IMG/VR virus record: IMGVR_UViG_3300020121_000064
Coordinates: 1-31,602 of that record
Origin: a virus
Length of the DNA: 31,602 nt
Strand: one strand, 5' to 3'
The notes beneath the pieces are model-generated. The model saw only the letters and a list, made by a program, of their open reading frames with translations, had not been told where the DNA came from and searched no databases. Below are positions 2,598 to 31,104 of the stretch, piece after piece; position 1 is the first letter of the stretch; each line of letters starts with the position of its first letter. The position numbers and the translations under genes were made by a program.

Positions 2598-4961
2598 ATG
2601 GCCATCAAAGAAGATGAAAAGATTGCTCGTCAAGCACGCATTGCTTGCGAGAAATTTAGAGGGAATTTTAAACAGAATATCGACCTCTATCACACCATGC
2701 ATACCTTCGTCTTAGGCCAGCAATGGACTGATGAAGAAGAAGATGACATGATTAAGACCTACCGCAAGGTGCCTCTTACATCCAATAAGCTCGGTACTAT
2801 GTCTAACTCACTGTTAGGCGAGCAACAACAAAACACCCCCCAATTACAAGTCGTCCCAATGACAGGATGCGATCAGAAAACCGCCCACCTTCGTGAAATC
2901 ATGACCAAAGACATCATGTTCTCATCCGATGCAACAACAGCGTATCAAGTAGCCGCAGGCCAAGCAGCCATCGGTGGCTTTGGTGCTTTCTGCATTGGTA
3001 CTGATTATGCGCATGAGAAATCCTTTGACCAAGATATTGTCTATTACCATTTCAAGGACGCAACCCGCTGCTATTGGGATGTGGGAGCTGAAACCATTAA
3101 CAAGACCGATGGCACGATGTGCGGGTATCTATCGCGCATGAGTCGTGAGAAGTTTCGTGATATGTATGGCAAGGAAACTGAGGAAAATATTTTAAAGACC
3201 TCAGGCATTACCCAAACCCAAGAAGAAATCGCCTTGGCTGTTCAACCTGATGATGGGGACGATCCCTTCAATTGGGCCGATGATGAAGGTATCACCATCA
3301 TTGACCATTACGTGCGCAAGTATGAAAACGACACGCTTTATAAGCTATCCAACGGCAACATCCTAAACCAAGAAGAAATGGATGAGATGATTGAACACTC
3401 GCGTGACATCAATGAGCGCAACCGAATGATGGACATGCAAGGCATGCAAAATCCCATGATGGGAATGGGTGGTGGAATGCCTGCGGGACAAATGCAGGGA
3501 CAAGAAGAAGAGCCGATGGCTGAAGGAGAGGCGGCCCAATTACAAACCGATGGCTTTGGCGTGGGTGGCAGTCATGAAATATTACCCCAACCTAAAGGCA
3601 TCGACGTTGACCGCTACAATAGAGCCCAAGATTTAGCCGTTGAAACCGATGTGGATTCGTTTGAAACCATGACTCTTTGGGATGATGGCGAGATGGTTCG
3701 CATTGAAGACAGCAGACCATCCAAACGGCATAAAATTATTCATTACCGCATTGCCGGTAACTACATCCTTGACCAAACTGAATTTCCTAGCCAACAATTG
3801 CCATTGGTCTATGTCGATAACAATTCGTACTATGACAAGACAGGTAAGCAGGTGACGCGTTCCTTCTTTGGAGACTGTCGTGATACTCAGCGTTATATCA
3901 ACTATCTTCGTACACAATCAGCGTATATCCTTAAGGTTTCCCGTTATGACCAGTGGATTGGTAGCAAGAAGAATGTTGCAAGCATTGATACCCAAAGAAA
4001 CTGGCGTGACCCAACAGCCATTCAAGGAATGCTTACTTATGACGAATCCCCCGAAGGAAACAAGCCTGAGCAAATCAGACCACCAGAGTTGTCCGTGTCC
4101 TTGTTCCAACAATACCAACTTGCGATTGAAGATCTCTACACATCAACTGGCCTATATCCAGCACGCATGGGGAACAACGGAGACGAAGCCAGCGGTAAGG
4201 CTATTGATGCGCGGACGCGTCAAGGCTCTTACTCCACTTACGTCTTCTTCAACTCCATCAACCGAGCTATAGCCACAGGTGGTGAAATCGTTAATGAGAT
4301 GATCCCAAGAGTCTATGACTCTGAGCGCGTCATGACTTTGATGATGCCGGATGAGGGAATGAAGAACATTACCATCAACCAACAACGAGATGAGTACGGT
4401 GAGCAAATTGAAAATGACATCCGTAAAGGAACGTATCAGGTTAGGCTTAAACCCGGCCCAAGCTTTGAAGGGCAAAAAGAACAGGCATTACAGTCATTAC
4501 GAGAAGTGCTCCAAGCCGATCCCACCGCGTTTAATCTTATTGCCGACCTCTATGCTGAAAACTTGCCTCTTGCTAATACTATTGAAATTAAAAATAGACT
4601 TAAGACGCGTGTACCCCCACAAATAATTGAAGCCGGCAAGACAGGTGAGATGCCCAAGGAACAAGGGCCATCACCCGAACAGCAAGCTGTTCAAATTCAA
4701 CAACAAGCAGCACAAGCAGACATGCAGTTTAAACAAGCTCAAATTCAAATCAAACAGCAAGAACTACAGCTCAAAGAAAAAGAAATGCAAGCTGAGATTG
4801 AGATTGAGCGCATGAAGTTAGAAATAGCACAAATGGAGTTAGCGGGTGATATTGAAGGTGAGCGTATGCGCTACATGGCCGAAACACAAAGGACGCAAAG
4901 CGATAACGCCATCTCTCATGCCGATAATATGGTCAAGATTTTGACACATAAAGTTGTTTAA
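2598..4961 (+). CDS. Portal protein, P22 gp1-like
   Basis: This is the dodecameric ring through which DNA enters and leaves the head. An in-frame TTG at 2571 would add nine residues, but ATG 2598 is preferred because AAAGGA lies 8 nt upstream. The protein has 787 residues; P22 portal has 725. The N-terminal region (EKFRGNFKQNIDLYHTMHTF, then GQQWTDEE) and the VPLTSNKLGTMSNSLLGEQQQN stretch are typical of the P22-portal family. A Met/Gly/Gln-rich low-complexity insert lies around residues 280-320. The last 120 residues are a Gln/Lys/Glu-rich coiled coil, expected to form the helical barrel extending into the head. It sits between terminase and scaffold, as in P22. Confidence 0.93.
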   Translation: MAIKEDEKIARQARIACEKFRGNFKQNIDLYHTMHTFVLGQQWTDEEEDDMIKTYRKVPLTSNKLGTMSNSLLGEQQQNTPQLQVVPMTGCDQKTAHLREIMTKDIMFSSDATTAYQVAAGQAAIGGFGAFCIGTDYAHEKSFDQDIVYYHFKDATRCYWDVGAETINKTDGTMCGYLSRMSREKFRDMYGKETEENILKTSGITQTQEEIALAVQPDDGDDPFNWADDEGITIIDHYVRKYENDTLYKLSNGNILNQEEMDEMIEHSRDINERNRMMDMQGMQNPMMGMGGGMPAGQMQGQEEEPMAEGEAAQLQTDGFGVGGSHEILPQPKGIDVDRYNRAQDLAVETDVDSFETMTLWDDGEMVRIEDSRPSKRHKIIHYRIAGNYILDQTEFPSQQLPLVYVDNNSYYDKTGKQVTRSFFGDCRDTQRYINYLRTQSAYILKVSRYDQWIGSKKNVASIDTQRNWRDPTAIQGMLTYDESPEGNKPEQIRPPELSVSLFQQYQLAIEDLYTSTGLYPARMGNNGDEASGKAIDARTRQGSYSTYVFFNSINRAIATGGEIVNEMIPRVYDSERVMTLMMPDEGMKNITINQQRDEYGEQIENDIRKGTYQVRLKPGPSFEGQKEQALQSLREVLQADPTAFNLIADLYAENLPLANTIEIKNRLKTRVPPQIIEAGKTGEMPKEQGPSPEQQAVQIQQQAAQADMQFKQAQIQIKQQELQLKEKEMQAEIEIERMKLEIAQMELAGDIEGERMRYMAETQRTQSDNAISHADNMVKILTHKVV

Positions 4962-5903: not shown

Positions 5904-5936
5904 ACCGAATTCGGTAATGACAAAACCGAATTCGGT
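5904..5936. promoter_or_regulatory. Two identical 12-bp palindromes (operator pair or terminator stem)
   Basis: ACCGAATTCGGT occurs at 5904-5915 and again at 5925-5936. Each copy is a perfect palindrome and the centres are 21 bp apart, two helical turns. They sit immediately upstream of the coat promoter -35 at 5944, at about -76 to -44 from its predicted start. Two dimers could bind on the same DNA face. Because each copy is self-complementary, the pair can also form a 12-bp RNA stem with a 9-nt loop. The following TTTAACATTT is a poor U-tract, so termination is possible but less convincing. Confidence 0.6.
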
Positions 5937-5943
5937 TTAACAT

Positions 5944-5973
5944 TTGACAAAACTGTGTTATGTGGCCTAAGAT
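5944..5973 (+). promoter_or_regulatory. Sigma70-like promoter for the coat protein gene
   Basis: A consensus -35 TTGACA (5944-5949) is separated by 18 bp from TAAGAT (5968-5973), with a start predicted near 5980. It follows the scaffold stop and precedes a ~130-nt leader before the coat gene. An extra promoter here would raise coat mRNA, the most abundant virion component. Confidence 0.55.
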
Positions 5974-23832: not shown

Positions 23833-24108
23833 CGTAGGTTCATCAACTTCAAAGATATGCCAGACCAAACCATTTGGCATTACAACTGTTCGCAAAAAAT
23901 ACATGCATTCGATGCCTGTTATCTTATGCCCGGTTCCAACGATTTTAAAATATTTTTTAACAAGATTGGCGTGTATATCTATTACACCCCACATATATAT
24001 CTTGTCACCAATGGATTTTATATCGCACAGATAATAATTGTCTGGTAATTCCATGGCAATAATATCACCGGTTATCGGTATTTCGTATTTAAATATATGT
24101 CCTATCAT
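23827..24108 (-). CDS. Conserved phage protein, DUF7352-like
   Basis: The frame is open to 24210, but ATG 24108 is chosen because AAGGA lies 7 nt upstream and the longer version would overlap the previous gene. The 93-residue product has an N-terminal HIFKYEIPITGDIIAMELPD, a middle KIYMWGVIDIHANLVKKYFK, the block IVGTGHKI, and a C-terminal NGLVWHIFE. This strand pattern, with IVGTGH and a final VWHxFE, is shared by a widespread small phage family (DUF7352, from memory) of unknown function. It is the last gene of the leftward operon; its stop lies inside the terminator stem. Confidence 0.82.
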   Translation of the reverse strand: MIGHIFKYEIPITGDIIAMELPDNYYLCDIKSIGDKIYMWGVIDIHANLVKKYFKIVGTGHKITGIECMYFLRTVVMPNGLVWHIFEVDEPTV

Positions 24109-24118
24109 TAAAATTCCT

Positions 24119-24337
24119 TTATATATAAAATTCTCCACAAGTCTTGCATTTGCATTCGGGTTGCAGCTCATAAACTTTGCCATCACTTTCATGCTCGCAA
24201 TAGTTATCAATCATGGATTGGATTTTGTCTTTTAGTACTGGATAATCTTTATATTCTTTAGCATCACCCCAATGTCTGATTGCAATGTTCAGCTCCAAGA
24301 ACAATATTTTTAGTTCTTCTTTTGTAAAGTCATTCAT
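24119..24337 (-). CDS. Small phage protein with paired-cysteine C-terminus
   Basis: This 72-residue protein begins with an acidic amphipathic helix (NDFTKEELKILFLELNIAI), continues with LKDKIQSMIDNYCEHESDG, and ends in a cysteine cluster, CKCKTCGEFYI. The C-x1-C-x2-C arrangement plus the earlier Cys/His (NYCEH) could bind zinc. Small proteins with this FTKEEL...KIQSMIDNYC...C-x2-CG layout are common in phage early regions, and none has a known role to my knowledge. Its ATG overlaps the previous stop as ATGA, so it is translated with the zinc-ribbon gene upstream. Confidence 0.8.
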   Translation of the reverse strand: MNDFTKEELKILFLELNIAIRHWGDAKEYKDYPVLKDKIQSMIDNYCEHESDGKVYELQPECKCKTCGEFYI

Positions 24338-24588
24338 TTAATGCTTCCCATTAACATTCTTTTAATCTTAGCGTGCCATTTAGTCCATGACTCTGAGTTA
24401 ACACTATCAAAATACATATGCTCATATTCAAGCCCGCACATTTGACATTGGAATTTTTGACCTCTATCAAGCATCGTTTGGTTTTTACATGTAGGGCATC
24501 TATAGGGTTTAAATTGTTTACATGAGTCTTCAGCCTCTTTTATTTCGGAATCCGAAAAATTCCATACTTCTTCAATTTCATCGTCCAT
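24334..24588 (-). CDS. Zinc-ribbon hypothetical protein
   Basis: This is an 84-residue protein. The acidic N-terminus (DDEIEEVWNFSDSEIKEAED) is followed by a classic zinc ribbon, CPTC...CQMC (C-x2-C-x13-C-x2-C, about 31-51). The C-terminal SWTKWHAKIKRMLMGSIK is basic and amphipathic. A four-cysteine ribbon suits DNA or protein contact, perhaps as an accessory to the helicase encoded directly upstream, since only the ATG-to-stop junction separates them. This is context only; I do not recognise a specific family. Confidence 0.75.
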   Translation of the reverse strand: MDDEIEEVWNFSDSEIKEAEDSCKQFKPYRCPTCKNQTMLDRGQKFQCQMCGLEYEHMYFDSVNSESWTKWHAKIKRMLMGSIK

Positions 24589-26988
24589 CTAATCCTTCCA
24601 GTTAAAAGAATCCATCTTTTCAAATTCATTGCCTGAATGATCTTGCCATTTACTGATGTCCTCATCATGGCGTCCATTAGCAATCACCTGAAATGCCCTG
24701 AATTCCTTGTTATTTAACCTGTCCAAATCTATTTCATGAATCTTGCAAGACGCATGAACCAATTTATCGTATTCTTCATTCCAATCATTCACAGCTTTTA
24801 CATATCCATGTAAAGACACTCTATAGCATTTAAATGATTTCATTTCCCGACTATAAGCAATCGTGCTATTAAACACTTCCATCTTGACTATTTGGCACCA
24901 TTTGTCATAGGCATAACGCAGACTCACTCTTGGCAATATCGTATTCCAGTGAGTATCCCATGAAATTAAATCACCATTTTCACTAAAGCGTTTCATTTTG
25001 TCTTTATGGTCAACCCAAATCTTTGTCGGGAATCGAATGTGGCTTTGATTCTCTGCGACCTTCTCAATTGTATCCCCAAGGGTTGATCCATAGTTCTTAG
25101 CAAATCTAGCATAAGAACTTGGTGTGCGAATTCTGTATTGATCTTTGATAAGTCGCAGCTCATTGTTCTCACGTACCAAATACTCAAATATCACCTGATT
25201 GGTAAAACGGGCTATTTCAAAGAACGTGTGAATCACATCCAATTCCCGCTCATCTTCATCAACCATTGGATGGTCAAAATATTTCTCAACCACCTTAAGC
25301 CGATTCATGTCTTGCTCAATGCAATCAATCTGAACCGGTGAATGCAGCTCACCATTTTCAAGAATGCTCTTTAAATAAGCCAAATTCTGCAATCGCCCAT
25401 AAGCTTGATGCGGATGAACAAAATGCTGCTTAACTACCGTGTGATAAAAGAACCGCACAGCCTTTTCAGTGCTTAACAGGAAGTTTTCTTGTGCTTTGAT
25501 ATATTGGGTAGGGTTTGTTTTTGGGTTTAATAGGTAAGTGATATCGAAGCGTGGTGAACCATTTACAATAGATATTCCGTACTGCGTTTCCTTCACATCC
25601 AGCAAGATTCTATTCTTATTAGATGCAATCTCTTTTAAGTTTCGATTGGGATCGATAAGCTCTGTGTGACACGCTCTGCATTGACGCGACACAATATCAT
25701 TCTTAACACCACAGCCGGGGCAATCCTTCCATTCAAACCAGTGATCGCATCGTGAGTCATCTTTGGTGCCAATACATCGTCTGGCGGTCACTGTATTCAT
25801 CGCATTGCAACTGTAACACTCAATACAGTAATCGGGATTACCTTCACGATTTTGCAATAGCGCTTTGTTAATTACTGGATTGTCAATGTCACCATGCCTA
25901 TCAAGGTTGCCGGCATAATCCAAAATAAGACAATCGGTTTTACCATCTGCCAATCGAAGCCCGCGACCCAAGCACTGTATATACAAGACCAAGGACTCAG
26001 TAGGTCTAACAAACACAACAGTATCATAAGTTGGTACATCAACACCTGTACATAGAACATTTACATTCACCAAATATTTAATTATCCCAAGTCGTGCCTT
26101 GGTTATGTACTCATCACGCAAATGATCGGGCGTATTCCCGGTAATAATGGCAGTCTCTTCAGGCGGCAACCACTCAGCACACTCAGAGCAATGCTGAATG
26201 CTGCTTGCAAAAATAAATGCACCTTTCCTGTCTTTCACAATCTCTACCACTTCCGCCATAATTTTGGCGGTCAAGCGCGGCTTTTTATTGACACATGCCT
26301 CTAAGTCAACTGAGTTAAAGCGCCCCATGGAATTAACCTTTAATTCCTGAAAATCGTATTGAAGCGTCTTTTCACAATAACCCCAAATAGGATTGGTTAA
26401 ATACCCTTCTTTAATAAGCCAATCAGCAGTAATCGCGCAGACTTCCTCTTGAAAGAATAATTTCTCACCGACTATGGTGTGGCCTTTGCCACGGTAGGGC
26501 GTCCCCGTGAGCCCTACGAAACGAAGCTTGTGTCCTTCCTGTTGAGCATACAGCGCATAATGATTAAATATGCGCATGTAGGTCGTATCTTTTTCATTAA
26601 AGTTGATATTGTGGCATTCATCGACAACTATTAGATTGAATGGTATTTTTGAAAACTTGCCTTTCGCTTTTATGCTGCCCCTTACTGAAAGGGGTGAGGC
26701 AAATATCACAGGCTCTTCAGAATCCTTTTGACCCAAAGCCGCACAATAAATACCAGCATTACCACCTTGAAGTCTATACGTTTCGGCATTTTGGCGAATG
26801 AGCGTGCTATTCATTGTAAGGCAAAGCGCACGCCATCCCGCTTTCTCAATCACCATCAGTAATTCAGCTATGATAAGGGACTTACCAGCACCAACGCTTG
26901 CATTAACCAACAATGGCCCTTCAGTTTCTTTTAGGCGTGCTTTAAGCTTATCAAGCACCTCTTTTTGATACGGTCTTAATTTTTTCAT
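24589..26988 (-). CDS. SF2 DEAD/DEAH-type helicase with zinc-binding segment
   Basis: This is an ATP-dependent DNA or RNA unwinding or translocating enzyme, 799 residues. The RecA-like domain 1 has LRPYQ (4-8), Walker A ASVGAGKS (30-37), DECH motif II (123-126) and TGTP motif III (161-164). Domain 2 has GVDVPT (315-320) and motif VI QCLGRGLR (338-345). A zinc-binding region with cysteines at 388, 391, 394, 405, 414, 423, 426, 437 and 440 follows. The remaining ~350 residues are helical and unassigned. The layout resembles phage SF2 helicases used in replication or recombination. Neighbours (Sak4-like ATPase, SSB, nuclease) support that. The only ribosome-binding-like AAGGA is 13 nt upstream, at the end of a tiny ORF, suggesting coupling. 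Confidence 0.92.
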   Translation of the reverse strand: MKKLRPYQKEVLDKLKARLKETEGPLLVNASVGAGKSLIIAELLMVIEKAGWRALCLTMNSTLIRQNAETYRLQGGNAGIYCAALGQKDSEEPVIFASPLSVRGSIKAKGKFSKIPFNLIVVDECHNINFNEKDTTYMRIFNHYALYAQQEGHKLRFVGLTGTPYRGKGHTIVGEKLFFQEEVCAITADWLIKEGYLTNPIWGYCEKTLQYDFQELKVNSMGRFNSVDLEACVNKKPRLTAKIMAEVVEIVKDRKGAFIFASSIQHCSECAEWLPPEETAIITGNTPDHLRDEYITKARLGIIKYLVNVNVLCTGVDVPTYDTVVFVRPTESLVLYIQCLGRGLRLADGKTDCLILDYAGNLDRHGDIDNPVINKALLQNREGNPDYCIECYSCNAMNTVTARRCIGTKDDSRCDHWFEWKDCPGCGVKNDIVSRQCRACHTELIDPNRNLKEIASNKNRILLDVKETQYGISIVNGSPRFDITYLLNPKTNPTQYIKAQENFLLSTEKAVRFFYHTVVKQHFVHPHQAYGRLQNLAYLKSILENGELHSPVQIDCIEQDMNRLKVVEKYFDHPMVDEDERELDVIHTFFEIARFTNQVIFEYLVRENNELRLIKDQYRIRTPSSYARFAKNYGSTLGDTIEKVAENQSHIRFPTKIWVDHKDKMKRFSENGDLISWDTHWNTILPRVSLRYAYDKWCQIVKMEVFNSTIAYSREMKSFKCYRVSLHGYVKAVNDWNEEYDKLVHASCKIHEIDLDRLNNKEFRAFQVIANGRHDEDISKWQDHSGNEFEKMDSFNWKD

Positions 26989-27443: not shown

Positions 27444-27672
27444 TGGTCATCCCTAACAAAGTATCTTTATTTTTGTATCGTAGGATTTCCAAAAGGAGTC
27501 GTTTTAAATTCTTTTCAAGCGCATCAAGTCCATACTCAGTAAGAATTATTTTTTGACTATATAAGGCCACGCGTGCCAATCCATCATGGCATTGCTGATT
27601 GACAGTGATAACCGTTAAGTTGTCTTGATTTTCTTCTATCTTGAATATGGACTCTGTAAGTAGCTCTATCAT
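27412..27672 (-). CDS. Hypothetical protein, mixed alpha/beta
   Basis: This 86-residue protein has an N-terminal strand-rich half (ESIFKIEENQDNLTVITVNQ, then ALYSQKIILTEYGLDALEKN) and a C-terminal Leu/Lys helix (LKRLLLEILRYKNKD). There is no membrane span and only one Cys. I recognise no family. It is coupled to the preceding gene by an ATGA overlap and overlaps the DUF551 gene by 32 nt. Its place in the early operon suggests a host-takeover or replication accessory, with no direct evidence. Confidence 0.7.
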   Translation of the reverse strand: MIELLTESIFKIEENQDNLTVITVNQQCHDGLARVALYSQKIILTEYGLDALEKNLKRLLLEILRYKNKDTLLGMTNANEKMSKLQ

Positions 27673-27977
27673 TCAAAATTCACCTGTTTCATCCCTTCCA
27701 TATTGCGCTTCATCCCATCCAACACCTTTTGATAGGTATCTATAACAATATGCATTATCTCAGACGCACTCACCTGTTTATGACCAACCTGAAGGTAGTC
27801 ATCAATGGCTTTAATGGCAGCGTTGACCATATTAAATAAACTTAATTCCATGAAGTCATGAATGCCTCCACGTTTAGCCGTGTCAAACTTTGCAAGGAAG
27901 GTTAATAGAAACTGATGGGCATCAATAACTTTCTCATGAGCCGCAATTTCACGGCCCTCATAACGATTAATTTCCAT
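27669..27977 (-). CDS. Hypothetical helical protein
   Basis: This 102-residue, mostly helical protein starts MEINRYEGREIAAHEKVIDA and continues HQFLLTFLAKFDTAKRGG, then three amphipathic helices rich in Met/Ile/Asp. The N-terminal Glu/Asp/His-rich helix is unusual, but no catalytic signature is visible and I recognise no family. It overlaps the preceding alpha-CTD-like gene by 11 nt and the following gene by ATGA, so all three are probably made together. Confidence 0.72.
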   Translation of the reverse strand: MEINRYEGREIAAHEKVIDAHQFLLTFLAKFDTAKRGGIHDFMELSLFNMVNAAIKAIDDYLQVGHKQVSASEIMHIVIDTYQKVLDGMKRNMEGMKQVNFE

Positions 27978-28581
27978 AGCGCTCCTTAAGGGATTTAATC
28001 TCTCTTCTTATTGAGGGGTAACCGCTATTAAGAAAAGGAATTTCTATGCCTTTTTTACCGGCAACATAAATAATAGCTGCAACTGATTTTGCGCCCAAGT
28101 TTGGAATGATAGCCAAATCTCTTACAGTTAAGCCTTTGAGCTCGGAAATTCGCACAATTTTTTCTTCTTTAAGTGCTTTTACAGTGCGCACCTCAAGACC
28201 TCCTTGAAGGAACATTTCATGATTATCGAACAGTTCCGAAATAAGTAAATCTTCCTCAATGGGTTCTTTCTCAGGTTGTTTCGGTGGCGTATCAGTTAGA
28301 AAAAAGTTTTCAATGCGATAAATAAATTCATTGATTTGAATCGTAATGCCGATGAGCTCTTCTTGCCGATTGACAATATCTTCCATCAGACTTACAAGCG
28401 TTTTACGCTGCCCACGCACTTCATCGTAAGCCCTAGCTAAATCTGCCTTGTATTTGCGTAAAAGCTCCAATTCACATTTGATGGCCTCATCGTATTGGCG
28501 ATTTAAGTTTTCTTCATAGCGATGAAATATAAGCTCAATATGTTCTTTTTGTTCAGAGGTTAAGGGATCGTTAGTGGACAC
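27967..28581 (-). CDS. Coiled-coil protein with RNA polymerase alpha-CTD-like domain
   Basis: This 204-residue protein is probably a transcription factor. GTG 28581 is preferred: GGGGG lies 5 nt upstream, and the start overlaps the previous stop. Upstream in-frame ATGs at 28626 and 28599 lack such a site. Residues 8-95 are a long coiled coil, and 96-125 are an acidic Pro/Glu linker. Residues ~129-181 read VRTVKALKEEKIVRISELKG, then LTVRDLAIIPNLGAKS. Aligned without gaps to my memory of E. coli alpha-CTD residues 264-299, 16 of 36 positions are identical. Equivalents of the DNA-contacting Arg265, Gly296, Lys298 and Ser299 are kept; Asn268 is Lys. The domain could bind UP-element-like DNA or sigma. 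A generic helix-hairpin-helix role in DNA repair is the alternative. Confidence 0.8.
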   Translation of the reverse strand: MSTNDPLTSEQKEHIELIFHRYEENLNRQYDEAIKCELELLRKYKADLARAYDEVRGQRKTLVSLMEDIVNRQEELIGITIQINEFIYRIENFFLTDTPPKQPEKEPIEEDLLISELFDNHEMFLQGGLEVRTVKALKEEKIVRISELKGLTVRDLAIIPNLGAKSVAAIIYVAGKKGIEIPFLNSGYPSIRREIKSLKERYGN

Positions 28582-28927
28582 TTTTACCCCCTTTGTCATC
28601 CATTTGCTTTTTAATAATAGCAACAATGGCTTCCTTCACTTCATCGGGTAAATCTTTCATTTCCAGTGTCACAGCTTCTTTTTGTTCTTGAACAAAGAAG
28701 GGGTTCATATCCAGTTTTACTGAATCCCATCCTTTTTCGATGGCTTCACTGGTTTGGAAAAAAGGGTGATGCAAATCAAAGCCAAAGCGAAAGGCATGAC
28801 TTGCCATGTGCATTGCATGATTGGCACCCATCCATATGGCACCTAAACGGTGGAGTGCCATGTAGCGCTCAAATACATCCCCCTTTCTATCTTCAAGAAC
28901 CTCAACTTCTTCAGTCATGTCCTTCAT
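28571..28927 (-). CDS. Hypothetical His/Met-rich protein
   Basis: This 118-residue protein has an acidic start (KDMTEEVEVLEDRKGDVFER), a central block with six His and several Met (ALHRLGAIWMGANHAMHMAS, then HAFRFGFDLHHPFFQ), and a Lys/Glu helix at the end (LPDEVKEAIVAIIKKQMDD). The His/Met cluster could bind metal, or could simply be an amphipathic helix. No known family is recognised. The upstream AAGGT is about 10 nt from ATG 28927. Its stop overlaps the GTG start of the alpha-CTD-like gene, so the two are coupled and may form a pair. Confidence 0.7.
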   Translation of the reverse strand: MKDMTEEVEVLEDRKGDVFERYMALHRLGAIWMGANHAMHMASHAFRFGFDLHHPFFQTSEAIEKGWDSVKLDMNPFFVQEQKEAVTLEMKDLPDEVKEAIVAIIKKQMDDKGGKSVH

Positions 28928-28970
28928 TAAATCAAGTACCTTTTTGATGAGTCCCCTGATATTTTTCTAA

Positions 28971-29162
28971 TCAATCTTCTGTATTTCTTTCATTCATTTC
29001 ATCCTTTCTTTTATTTAAATAAACAATCATGCATCCCATGCCACAAAAATCTAATGGTGGGAATGACAAAATATTATCCACAAAATTCACTTCAAAATGA
29101 CCTATGTACGATCCTGTTAAATTCTTATCGCATTGATCGCAATGATGGGTCGTTTTTCTCAT
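28971..29162 (-). CDS. Small zinc-finger-like hypothetical protein
   Basis: An in-frame ATG at 29171 exists, but ATG 29162 is preferred. It forms an ATGA overlap with the nuclease stop and has AAGGT 9 nt upstream. The 63-residue product starts MRKTTHHCDQCDKNLTGSYI, with C-x2-C, and has a second pair, CGMGC, near residue 40. The two pairs make a plausible four-cysteine zinc site of the treble-clef kind. The tail is charged (NKRKDEMNERNTED). Function is unknown, and it follows the Cas4-like nuclease directly. Confidence 0.7.
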   Translation of the reverse strand: MRKTTHHCDQCDKNLTGSYIGHFEVNFVDNILSFPPLDFCGMGCMIVYLNKRKDEMNERNTED

Positions 29163-29818
29163 TTGTGGCATACCTTGTTAAATTTACACATCTTGCATTG
29201 ATACCAAAGCGGCGATCCATTAATGCGCGGTGGCGCCACATTCGCTTGTGTAATCATTAAAGCCTTGCATTCCAAATTAACGTAAAATGCGGGGTCAAAA
29301 GTCACTAATTCATCGGAAATCTCACTATTATCCTTATTTAGTACAAGTATATATGTACTATATATGCGACTCATCCCCATATAGGACTGAATTTGCGCAT
29401 AATATTGAGGATTCCAAACCTTAACCCCTTTCTTAACAAATATCTTAAAACTGGCATCTTTAGCGGTTTTAATCTCAATGATGGCCTTAAATACACCACC
29501 ACGACCAATCCAAACCGAATCAACATGCCCCTTAAATTGCGGCACCATCTCAGACGACAACGTGCGTTGTGGCAACACGCCAAGCGTAATACCTGCATCA
29601 TCAAGCCATTCCATAACAAGACGCTCAAGCCACTTACCAATAGCCCAAGTGCGCCGTGTTTTAGTGGGTACTTTCTCAGCCTTTGTACCCTTAAACTCAT
29701 ACCAAATCTGTCTTAAACAATCGGAGCCAATGCTACTGGCCCCGATGTAATCACGCGTATCATTTGAATCATGCGCCTGATACTTTTCAATGCGCTTGGT
29801 TAATATATCTCTGGCCAT
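29159..29818 (-). CDS. Cas4/RecB-like nuclease with Fe-S cysteines
   Basis: This is a probable single-strand-processing exonuclease of the PD-(D/E)XK family, 219 residues. Cys34 sits in SSIGSDCLRQIW, the active-site Asp100 in GHVDSVW, Glu115-x-Lys117 in IIEIKTA, and the QxxxY motif in QIQSY (142-146). The C-terminal CKMCKFNKVC supplies Cys208, Cys211 and Cys217. With Cys34 these make the four-cysteine set that holds a [4Fe-4S] cluster in Cas4 and phage RecB-type exonucleases. No cas genes or CRISPR repeats are nearby, so a recombination role beside the Sak4-like ATPase and SSB is more likely than adaptation. AGGA precedes ATG 29818. Confidence 0.9.
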   Translation of the reverse strand: MARDILTKRIEKYQAHDSNDTRDYIGASSIGSDCLRQIWYEFKGTKAEKVPTKTRRTWAIGKWLERLVMEWLDDAGITLGVLPQRTLSSEMVPQFKGHVDSVWIGRGGVFKAIIEIKTAKDASFKIFVKKGVKVWNPQYYAQIQSYMGMSRIYSTYILVLNKDNSEISDELVTFDPAFYVNLECKALMITQANVAPPRINGSPLWYQCKMCKFNKVCHK

Positions 29819-29835
29819 TTATAATCCTAATTGTA

Positions 29836-30435
29836 TTAAAATGGAACATCGTCCAAAAGGTCTTGGGTTGGTGCTGCTGCCTGATTGCGACTAAAAGCAC
29901 TGTCAATAGGTTCGCGTCCACCACTGGCATAAGTGGCTACAGCAACGTGAGTGGTGGCAGGAATCCCGTGACCTGTTTCGCATTTAAAGCCCTTGGAGTC
30001 ATGAATTTCAGCAACCCAATTGTATTGACGACCCTGATCGTTTGGCTCAGTTTCGCGAATCTTAATGCCCGCAGCCTTACCTACAAAAACCGCCAAATCT
30101 TGGTCAGTAGGTTCACCGGCATGCTTAGGCTTTGTGTTATATAGCTGATAAATTAATTTGAGCATGTTGAGCGCTCTATGGCGTGCCTTGGCTGGCTCTT
30201 TAGCCATTGGGTCGCCGTACACTTTAAGCTTTTGCTCAACCTTAGAGCCTTTAAAGTCCCCATCGGTTAAAAGCCAGCTTATGGATAAATACTTATTGCC
30301 ATTGAATTCGGCATTTTTGAAGGACTCAACGCGAGCTAGCGCCATTGTGCCGTCTGGTATTTGTGTAAAAGACTTTGCAAATGCATCTTCAGCATTGCCC
30401 GTAACTTCACCTATTTCAGATTCCCAAAAACTCAT
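29836..30435 (-). CDS. ssDNA-binding protein, DUF669-like
   Basis: This 199-residue protein is likely to coat single-stranded DNA in recombination and replication. The core has the DUF669-like pattern: an N-terminal DGTMALARVESFKNAEFNGN, LSISWLLTDGDFKGSKVEQK, a helical RHRALNMLKLIYQLY, then FVGKAAGIKIRETEPNDQGR. The disordered Gln/Ala-rich linker ends in an acidic tip DLLDDVPF, like the protein-interaction tails of bacterial SSB and T7 gp2.5. It sits 3 nt after the Sak4-like ATPase gene, the usual partner of this SSB type. Naming rests on pattern recognition, so another OB-fold SSB family is possible. Confidence 0.82.
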   Translation of the reverse strand: MSFWESEIGEVTGNAEDAFAKSFTQIPDGTMALARVESFKNAEFNGNKYLSISWLLTDGDFKGSKVEQKLKVYGDPMAKEPAKARHRALNMLKLIYQLYNTKPKHAGEPTDQDLAVFVGKAAGIKIRETEPNDQGRQYNWVAEIHDSKGFKCETGHGIPATTHVAVATYASGGREPIDSAFSRNQAAAPTQDLLDDVPF

Positions 30436-30438
30436 TAT

Positions 30439-31104
30439 TTATTCCTCATCATTAAAGTAATTTTCAACTGCACCTTTTACCGTCAACAAATCGTTGGGTA
30501 TAAGGAACTCTTCAAACATTCCCATCGGGGACTTGGCCAAGAACTCACCATCATATTGAGTTTGAAACAAGTACTCGCCATCCACTACACGTGAATGCAG
30601 CACTGTTGTAAACAAGCCCTCAATGGTTATTTTCTCATCCAACATCTTGCCAATGGTTTTGCATTTGGAACGCCCTGTGGAATCCACATCACTATGCGCC
30701 AAGATGAAATTGGTGAGGGTGGGGCGTGTGCCTAGACAAGCATTAATCGTGCTCCATCCATGATTGGCAAGCTCTGAAAATTTATCAAAGCCTTTCTCAG
30801 ACACCCGGCGCATGAACTCATAGGCTAGAATGTATTGCCAGTCGTCAATGACGAGCGTTGTGATGTCTGGTCGCTCTTTATTGACCATCTCAATACAACG
30901 CACGACATGCGCCCAATCATTGGTGGAATAGTAGTTGCCTAGCTTGTTATCCTTGGTGTACAAGTGATAATTTTTTTTGAATGCTCGAAAGGGTAGTGGT
31001 TTGTCCAAAACATTAATAATGAACGTGGATTGTGGATCTAGGTTTCGCAAAGCAGTGGATTTCCCACTGCCTGATTGACCTATTACTAGTACAGTATTAC
31101 TCAT
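30439..31104 (-). CDS. Sak4-like RecA-family ATPase (AAA_24 type)
   Basis: This is a recombination ATPase that in related phages works with SSB for single-strand annealing. It has 221 residues. Walker A is GQSGSGKST (9-17) at the very start, as in Sak4 and other short RecA-core proteins. Walker B is TTLVIDDWQY (83-91). The HGWSTINACL region and FILAHSDVDS (near 135-145) are typical later motifs, with the sensor-type His/Ser. It lacks a separate DNA-binding domain. It follows its upstream gene by a TAATG overlap and lies next to the SSB, which supports the Sak4 assignment over a generic AAA ATPase. Confidence 0.88.
   Translation of the reverse strand: MSNTVLVIGQSGSGKSTALRNLDPQSTFIINVLDKPLPFRAFKKNYHLYTKDNKLGNYYSTNDWAHVVRCIEMVNKERPDITTLVIDDWQYILAYEFMRRVSEKGFDKFSELANHGWSTINACLGTRPTLTNFILAHSDVDSTGRSKCKTIGKMLDEKITIEGLFTTVLHSRVVDGEYLFQTQYDGEFLAKSPMGMFEEFLIPNDLLTVKGAVENYFNDEE

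Follow-up and report, generated by a model that had tools for sequence, protein, structure and literature searches.

Why would a phage carry, within a recombination operon, a small protein that ends in the C-terminal domain of the RNA polymerase alpha subunit (alpha-CTD)? The question is raised by one gene in a complete IMG/VR record of 31,602 bases, hereafter the window. The plus strand of the window encodes phage head genes (terminase small subunit, portal, scaffold and capsid), and the minus strand carries an early block made up of a Sak4-like protein, a single-strand DNA binding protein (SSB), a Cas4-like exonuclease, small genes and a helicase. The gene under study lies among the small genes, as follows:

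30439..31104, minus strand, Sak4-like annealing protein (phrog_2872, E 5.2e-71)
29836..30435, minus strand, SSB (phrog_9002, E 8.6e-15)
29159..29818, minus strand, Cas4-like exonuclease (phrog_1990, E 1.4e-53)
28571..28927, minus strand, upstream operon gene of 118 amino acids with no assigned function (140 amino acids in a sister phage)
27967..28581, minus strand, gene of the coiled-coil/alpha-CTD protein, 204 amino acids, an intact frame from a GTG start at 28581 to a TAA at 27969-27967
27669..27977, minus strand, downstream operon gene of 102 amino acids with no assigned function, found in many relatives
24589..26988, minus strand, DNA helicase (phrog_16, E 1.1e-80)

The earlier note on this DNA named no strand for the coiled-coil/alpha-CTD gene, which is on the minus strand; its start is preceded by AAAGGGGG, and it overlaps each of its two neighbours by 11 bp. 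The upstream neighbour starts at 28927 and is shorter in the window than in the sister phage because an in-frame TAG (28927-28992 region) replaces a sense codon of the sister. When whole-genome contigs were searched with the exonuclease, one phage-like contig was found, in the assembly Gammaproteobacteria bacterium BBSC-SA01. The host of the window phage is thus gammaproteobacterial at best, an assignment that is not established.

The protein can be divided into the following parts:

28297..28557, minus strand, residues 9-95, a single predicted long amphipathic helix and coiled-coil candidate (AlphaFold, pLDDT close to 90 for most of its length)
28264..28296, minus strand, residues 96-106, a proline-rich acidic linker (low AlphaFold confidence around 96-112)
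28036..28263, minus strand, residues 107-182, an RNA polymerase alpha-CTD-like helix-hairpin-helix (HhH) domain (PF03118, fold and residue map)
28188-28186, minus strand, the codon of R132, equivalent to R265 of Escherichia coli alpha (residue map)
27970..28035, minus strand, residues 183-204, a C-terminal tail in which a further helix is predicted at 189-202 (AlphaFold)

This anatomy is secure, and it bears out what had been read from the letters, namely a coiled coil joined by an acidic linker to an alpha-CTD, with the domain for polymerase assembly replaced. The hydrophobic periodicity of the helix at residues 9-95 is 3.58, a helical value that only 0.75% of shuffled sequences equal, and the helix probably pairs with that of a second copy, giving a dimer. 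The AlphaFold model was built from a shallow alignment of 8 sequences, 4 of which have the CTD. No Pfam match to the alpha N-terminal domain was found in the window protein, and the NCBIfam rpoA models score at most 24 bits on it against cut-offs of at least 227.8. Because the alpha N-terminal domain is absent, assembly into core polymerase by the known route is impossible for this protein.

Residues 107-182 are confirmed as an RNA polymerase alpha-CTD by both sequence and fold. The Pfam model PF03118 (RNA_pol_A_CTD) scores 29.5 bits (E 6.3e-7) on residues 129-170, over the curated cut-off of 23.8 bits, and gives 30.4 bits for the same domain in a six-frame search. A phmmer search of the PDB with the window protein returned RpoA chains only, the best being a Thermus alpha-CTD (E 0.0012). 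The gapless alignment to E. coli RpoA, for which the earlier note had given 16 identities over 36 positions, yields the same count; its BLOSUM62 score of 73 was reached by none of 2000 shuffles, whose maximum was 45. The equivalents of Arg265, Gly296, Lys298 and Ser299 that had been proposed are indeed kept, as R132, G163, K165 and S166, together with that of N294 (N161). In the E. coli alpha-CTD, R265, N294 and K298 make minor-groove and backbone contacts (PMC5101437; PMC7822876). Other positions have changed, namely N268 to K135, C269 to A136, K291 to I158 and E302 to A169. The sigma-contact residues are also altered (D259 to Q126, E261 to G128), which speaks against the same sigma contact, though D259 and E261 are a property of the RpoA alpha-CTD and are not required for membership of the domain family. 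The predicted fold (model 107-182) aligns with 1z3e_B over 66 residues (Z 9.3, rmsd 1.6 A, VIA-align), and the top 30 rows of the structure comparison are all RpoA. It had been asked whether another HhH family would fit best, and the opposite was found: the RpoA alpha-CTDs come first, and the next-ranked fold family comprises the N-terminal domains of Dmc1 (Z 7.6) and RAD51 (about 7).

It is also evident that this domain has been exchanged between close relatives. The sister phage is represented by two contigs, IMGVR 3300005338_000040 and 3300026095_000384 (L001/L005 and L002/L006), which are 99.97% identical to each other across their overlap. Over 20.8 kb the window and the sister phage share 95.6 to 96.3% identity, and the N-terminal domain (N-domain) of the protein is common to both, with 102 of 104 residues identical. 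The sister CTD, however, is a different alpha-CTD with 34% identity to that of the window, and it outscores the window domain on PF03118 (44.1 bits). The exchanged segment is:

27975..28270, minus strand, exchanged cassette, 296 bp in the window and 221 bp encoding the other alpha-CTD in the sister contigs

The break starts at codon 104/105, inside the linker, and extends as far as the opening codons of the gene that follows. Across the 20.8 kb the alignment breaks in only one other place, at window 23837-24585. The N-domain itself shows 22 nucleotide differences between window and sister, 19 of them in synonymous codons, and because just 2 of the 104 residues change, this pattern of substitution indicates that the N-domain is under purifying selection. 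A different tail at the same point in near-identical phages suggests that phages maintain the alpha-CTD as an interchangeable part with a use in gene control or in the handling of DNA. The pair, one scaffold with two alpha-CTDs, constitutes a natural experiment on what the domain specifies.

Several other features of the sister comparison are worth recording. The poorly alignable segment at window 23837-24585, compared with IMGVR 3300005338_000040, is located where the two gene blocks converge. Between a phrog_2480 gene and Sak4, the sister phage carries a 173-amino-acid gene, HNH-endonuclease-like by eye (L002 1954-2475; L006 about 3268-3793), which is missing there in the window. A divergent promoter region at L002 1414-1535, between a small gene that is Cro-like by eye and the recombination operon, contains an inverted repeat, TTACAATAA...TTATTGTAA around GCTATATAGC.

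We then considered how widely this arrangement is found among relatives. An alignment search with the exonuclease identified 45 viral loci. The exonuclease and helicase are retained in dozens of relatives, and the slot between their genes is rich in small variable genes. Apart from the window and sister proteins, matches to an N-domain HMM occur at loci L010, L014, L026, L045, L044 and L064. The N-domain occurs without a CTD in the first four, and in L014 the protein stops where the linker would begin. In L044 the CTD is intermediate between PF03118 (26.6 bits) and HHH_5, and in L064 it is missed by PF03118 and recognised only by its predicted fold and by a home-made HMM. The predicted L064 fold (mean pLDDT 69.7) matches the alpha-CTD with Z 8.5, the first unrelated row having 3.9, and like the window protein it is predicted to have a helix after the domain. 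Both L044 and L064 share the window N-domain and have lost the R265 equivalent, so that DNA binding would not be uniform across the family; in L064 the DNA-contact residues are not retained.

A search for the same fusion in other phages was also rewarded, as L058 and L057 have unrelated coiled coils followed by strong alpha-CTDs (PF03118, 68.1 and 60.9 bits). Their helical, coiled-coil-like N-terminal halves fall outside the N-domain HMM, and their genes occupy the same operon slot. Most relatives in the exonuclease group lack the CTD, and on the exonuclease tree (a quick tree with many weak forks) the presence of a C-terminal CTD or HhH domain needs five changes, which points to repeated gain or loss.

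Phage alpha-CTD proteins are not limited to this operon. A search of IMG/VR with an alpha-CTD alignment returned 46 loci, 42 of which are outside the phage group of the window. A full-length RpoA is absent from the frames inspected; most span 106-341 amino acids with the alpha-CTD near one end, and in three cases (L099, L103 and L115) the partner region is, by eye, a coiled coil. A Pfam scan of 29 viral alpha-CTD proteins detected no alpha N-terminal domain, and 29 phage alpha-CTD proteins show no variation in the columns of R265 and G296. A terminase was detected in 5 of 15 alpha-CTD contigs, so several of these contigs are certainly phages, the phage status of the rest being not proven.

Furthermore, phage alpha-CTDs are linked in their genomes to sigma-70 region 4. 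The two domains are found in the same frame in L090 (34.9 bits for region 4), L119 and L126, and an alpha-CTD gene adjoins a region-4 gene in L058, L104 and L128, the neighbour in L058 scoring 68.8 bits. Region 4 exceeds the cut-off in 7 of the 31 wider alpha-CTD records versus only 1 of the 49 exonuclease-group records (L058), and the 43 exonuclease-related records that lack a PF03118 match all fall short of it; since the two groups are unmatched and consist of unlike phages, this contrast is a lead and not a test. In the window itself, no match to sigma region 4 exceeds the cut-off.

Related arrangements were seen in passing. The proteins at L058 2331-2936 and L148 1-627 end in a sigma-70 region 4 that nearly matches the one in RpoD; the N-terminal half ahead of it is different, perhaps an XRE-type helix-turn-helix (HTH), and both phages encode an alpha-CTD protein. 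Three consecutive phage genes of L146 encode an HTH with an alpha-CTD (302-757), a second alpha-CTD protein (794-1321) and a sigma region-4 protein (1413-1874). Among proteobacterial genomes, L141, L142 and L143 encode short bacterial alpha-CTD proteins with unrelated partner regions. There are also bacterial frames of 1417-1659 amino acids that give an alpha-CTD-like match, and these may be PglW-like.

What, then, might the window protein do? With a probability of about 0.5, we favor a free-standing and probably dimeric DNA-binding factor that acts on transcription in trans, outside the polymerase. The long N-terminal helix would pair with that of a second copy and carry, on flexible linkers, alpha-CTDs that descended from RNA polymerase and are detached from the enzyme. 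The protein would be produced early, along with the recombination operon, and the face formed by R132, N161, G163, K165 and S166 may bind narrow A/T-rich minor grooves, as the kept residues suggest. At promoters it would, in trans, cover or compete for UP elements or upstream activator sites and thereby redirect host polymerase between promoter sets. Recombination at the linker would replace the alpha-CTD and retune the DNA site or the partner, leaving the scaffold unchanged. This transcription role is supported by the identity of the domain in sequence and fold, by the kept DNA-contact residues, by the exchange of the CTD alone, by the recurrence of the layout at the same slot in L057 and L058, by the loss of the assembly domain and by the genomic link between phage alpha-CTDs and sigma region 4. 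It is weakened by the setting, a recombination operon of Sak4, SSB, exonuclease and helicase with no transcription gene beside it in the window, by the changes at N268, C269, K291, E302 and the sigma-contact residues, and by the loss of the DNA face in L044 and L064 together with the lack of sigma region 4 in the window. If such proteins act in trans, they would form a new class of transcription factors in phages and offer a natural way to test what an alpha-CTD can do by itself.

The main rival is a role as an accessory of recombination, suggested by the presence of Sak4, SSB and exonuclease genes in the operon and by a second-best fold of the RAD51 type. A coiled-coil dimer would then hold duplex DNA near Sak4 and SSB through its HhH domain, which would take the role of the N-terminal HhH of RAD51 or Dmc1. 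The helicase of the operon, and its retention with the exonuclease in dozens of relatives, are consistent with such a role, as are the Dmc1 and RAD51 domains being the best non-RpoA folds, the weak HHH_5 matches of several members and the similarity of Sak4 to archaeal RadB, a Rad51 paralog (PMC5928155). We nevertheless regard it as doubtful, since RpoA scores above the RAD51-type folds for the window (Z 9.3 versus 7.6) and far above them for L064 (8.5 versus 3.7), the specific minor-groove residues are retained, the CTD is missing in most relatives that have the same recombination genes, and phage alpha-CTDs elsewhere accompany sigma region 4.

The domain could instead serve as a protein decoy that baits host binders of the alpha-CTD (activators, NusA, Spx-like regulators or a defence protein), with DNA binding secondary and CTD exchange following the host partner. 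The fact that only the CTD has been replaced between close relatives fits this explanation, as does the persistence of the fold in L044 and L064 after loss of R265-type residues, and phages are known to target the alpha-CTD, for example T4 Alt and ModA, which ADP-ribosylate Arg265 (PMC2988021). It is unlikely, however, given that the window protein keeps the DNA face and loses the sigma-contact residues, that 29 others all keep R265 and that no host partner is known. It is less likely still, indeed improbable, that the CTD is mosaic debris, captured by chance without a selected function. The slot is crowded with small variable genes and most relatives lack the CTD, as debris would predict, but two different intact alpha-CTDs stand in frame on one scaffold, frames are intact in several lineages, the fold is confidently predicted, the DNA-face residues are kept and the layout recurs with unrelated coiled coils.

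Phages are known to modify or bind the host alpha-CTD and sigma region 4, and here they appear to have detached copies of their own. Extending the transcription role beyond the window, we tentatively propose, at somewhat less than even odds, that uncultivated phages have repeatedly taken the alpha-CTD and sigma region 4 off the polymerase as free mix-and-match DNA readers on phage scaffolds, and that close relatives may swap the alpha-CTD cassette and so adjust how promoters are controlled.

Compared with known systems, the window protein shares with the RpoA alpha-CTD (PF03118) the fold, the HhH motif, the equivalents of R265, N294, G296, K298 and S299 and, probably, a domain held on a flexible linker from a dimerising part. 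It differs in having a long helix for the alpha N-terminal domain, changed sigma-contact residues and an extra C-terminal helix. Stand-alone proteins called 'RNA polymerase subunit alpha C-terminal domain' (on a Nostoc plasmid and in proteobacterial short frames) likewise have an alpha-CTD outside RpoA, but with another partner domain or none and outside this phage operon; exchange at a linker is shown here for the phages. If the transcription role is right, T4 Alt/ModA and AsiA/MotA resemble the window protein in redirecting host promoters through the same polymerase modules, though these factors modify or bind the host's own domain whereas the window protein carries a copy of the domain. The N-terminal HhH of RAD51, Dmc1 and RadA has a related fold and an association with the RecA family, but a lower structural score, a position in cis to the ATPase and no alpha-CTD residue signature. 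The alpha-CTD fold is also reused in phage-host conflict by BREX PglW, which has an alpha-CTD-like domain (PMC12839542) and is a large bacterial kinase defence protein as opposed to a small phage protein.

The alpha-CTD itself and stand-alone bacterial alpha-CTD proteins are therefore already known. No description of the coiled-coil/alpha-CTD protein, the cassette exchange or the linkage to sigma region 4 turned up in the open-access literature, PHROGs or GenBank phage records, in line with the earlier note, which knew of no characterised phage factor of this layout. A tblastn search of 50,697 GenBank phage records with the whole protein gave no match, nor did a search of these records with the L057 alpha-CTD; genome contigs searched with the whole window protein gave no confirmed match. 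PHROGs holds no match for the window protein and none for the E. coli alpha-CTD, and no description of a phage alpha-CTD protein was found in the open-access literature (subscription papers being outside this scope). With the sister CTD and one further phage alpha-CTD as queries, the annotated matches among GenBank phage records are host rpoA genes in phage-labelled records, which mislead searches for phage alpha-CTD proteins; several unannotated short records of unsettled identity also match. CAKLQH020000003.1, AFYI01000003.1 and AGRM01000003.1 are filed or labelled as phage and contain host rpoA, which is contamination.

The earlier note had also raised the possibility of a bridge between polymerase and phage repeats such as those at 110-157 or 5904-5936 of the window. 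Action of the protein at these repeats finds no support, the repeats being operator-like dyads or short CTCAT-type repeats. In particular, the segment at 5904-5936 consists of two ACCGAATTCGGT dyads and not of A-tract UP elements. These palindromes (5904-5915 and 5925-5936) are located immediately 5' of a promoter-like TTGACA (5944-5949) and TAAGAT (5968-5973), which are separated by an 18-bp spacer and lie ahead of the capsid gene. The pair looks like an operator or activator site.
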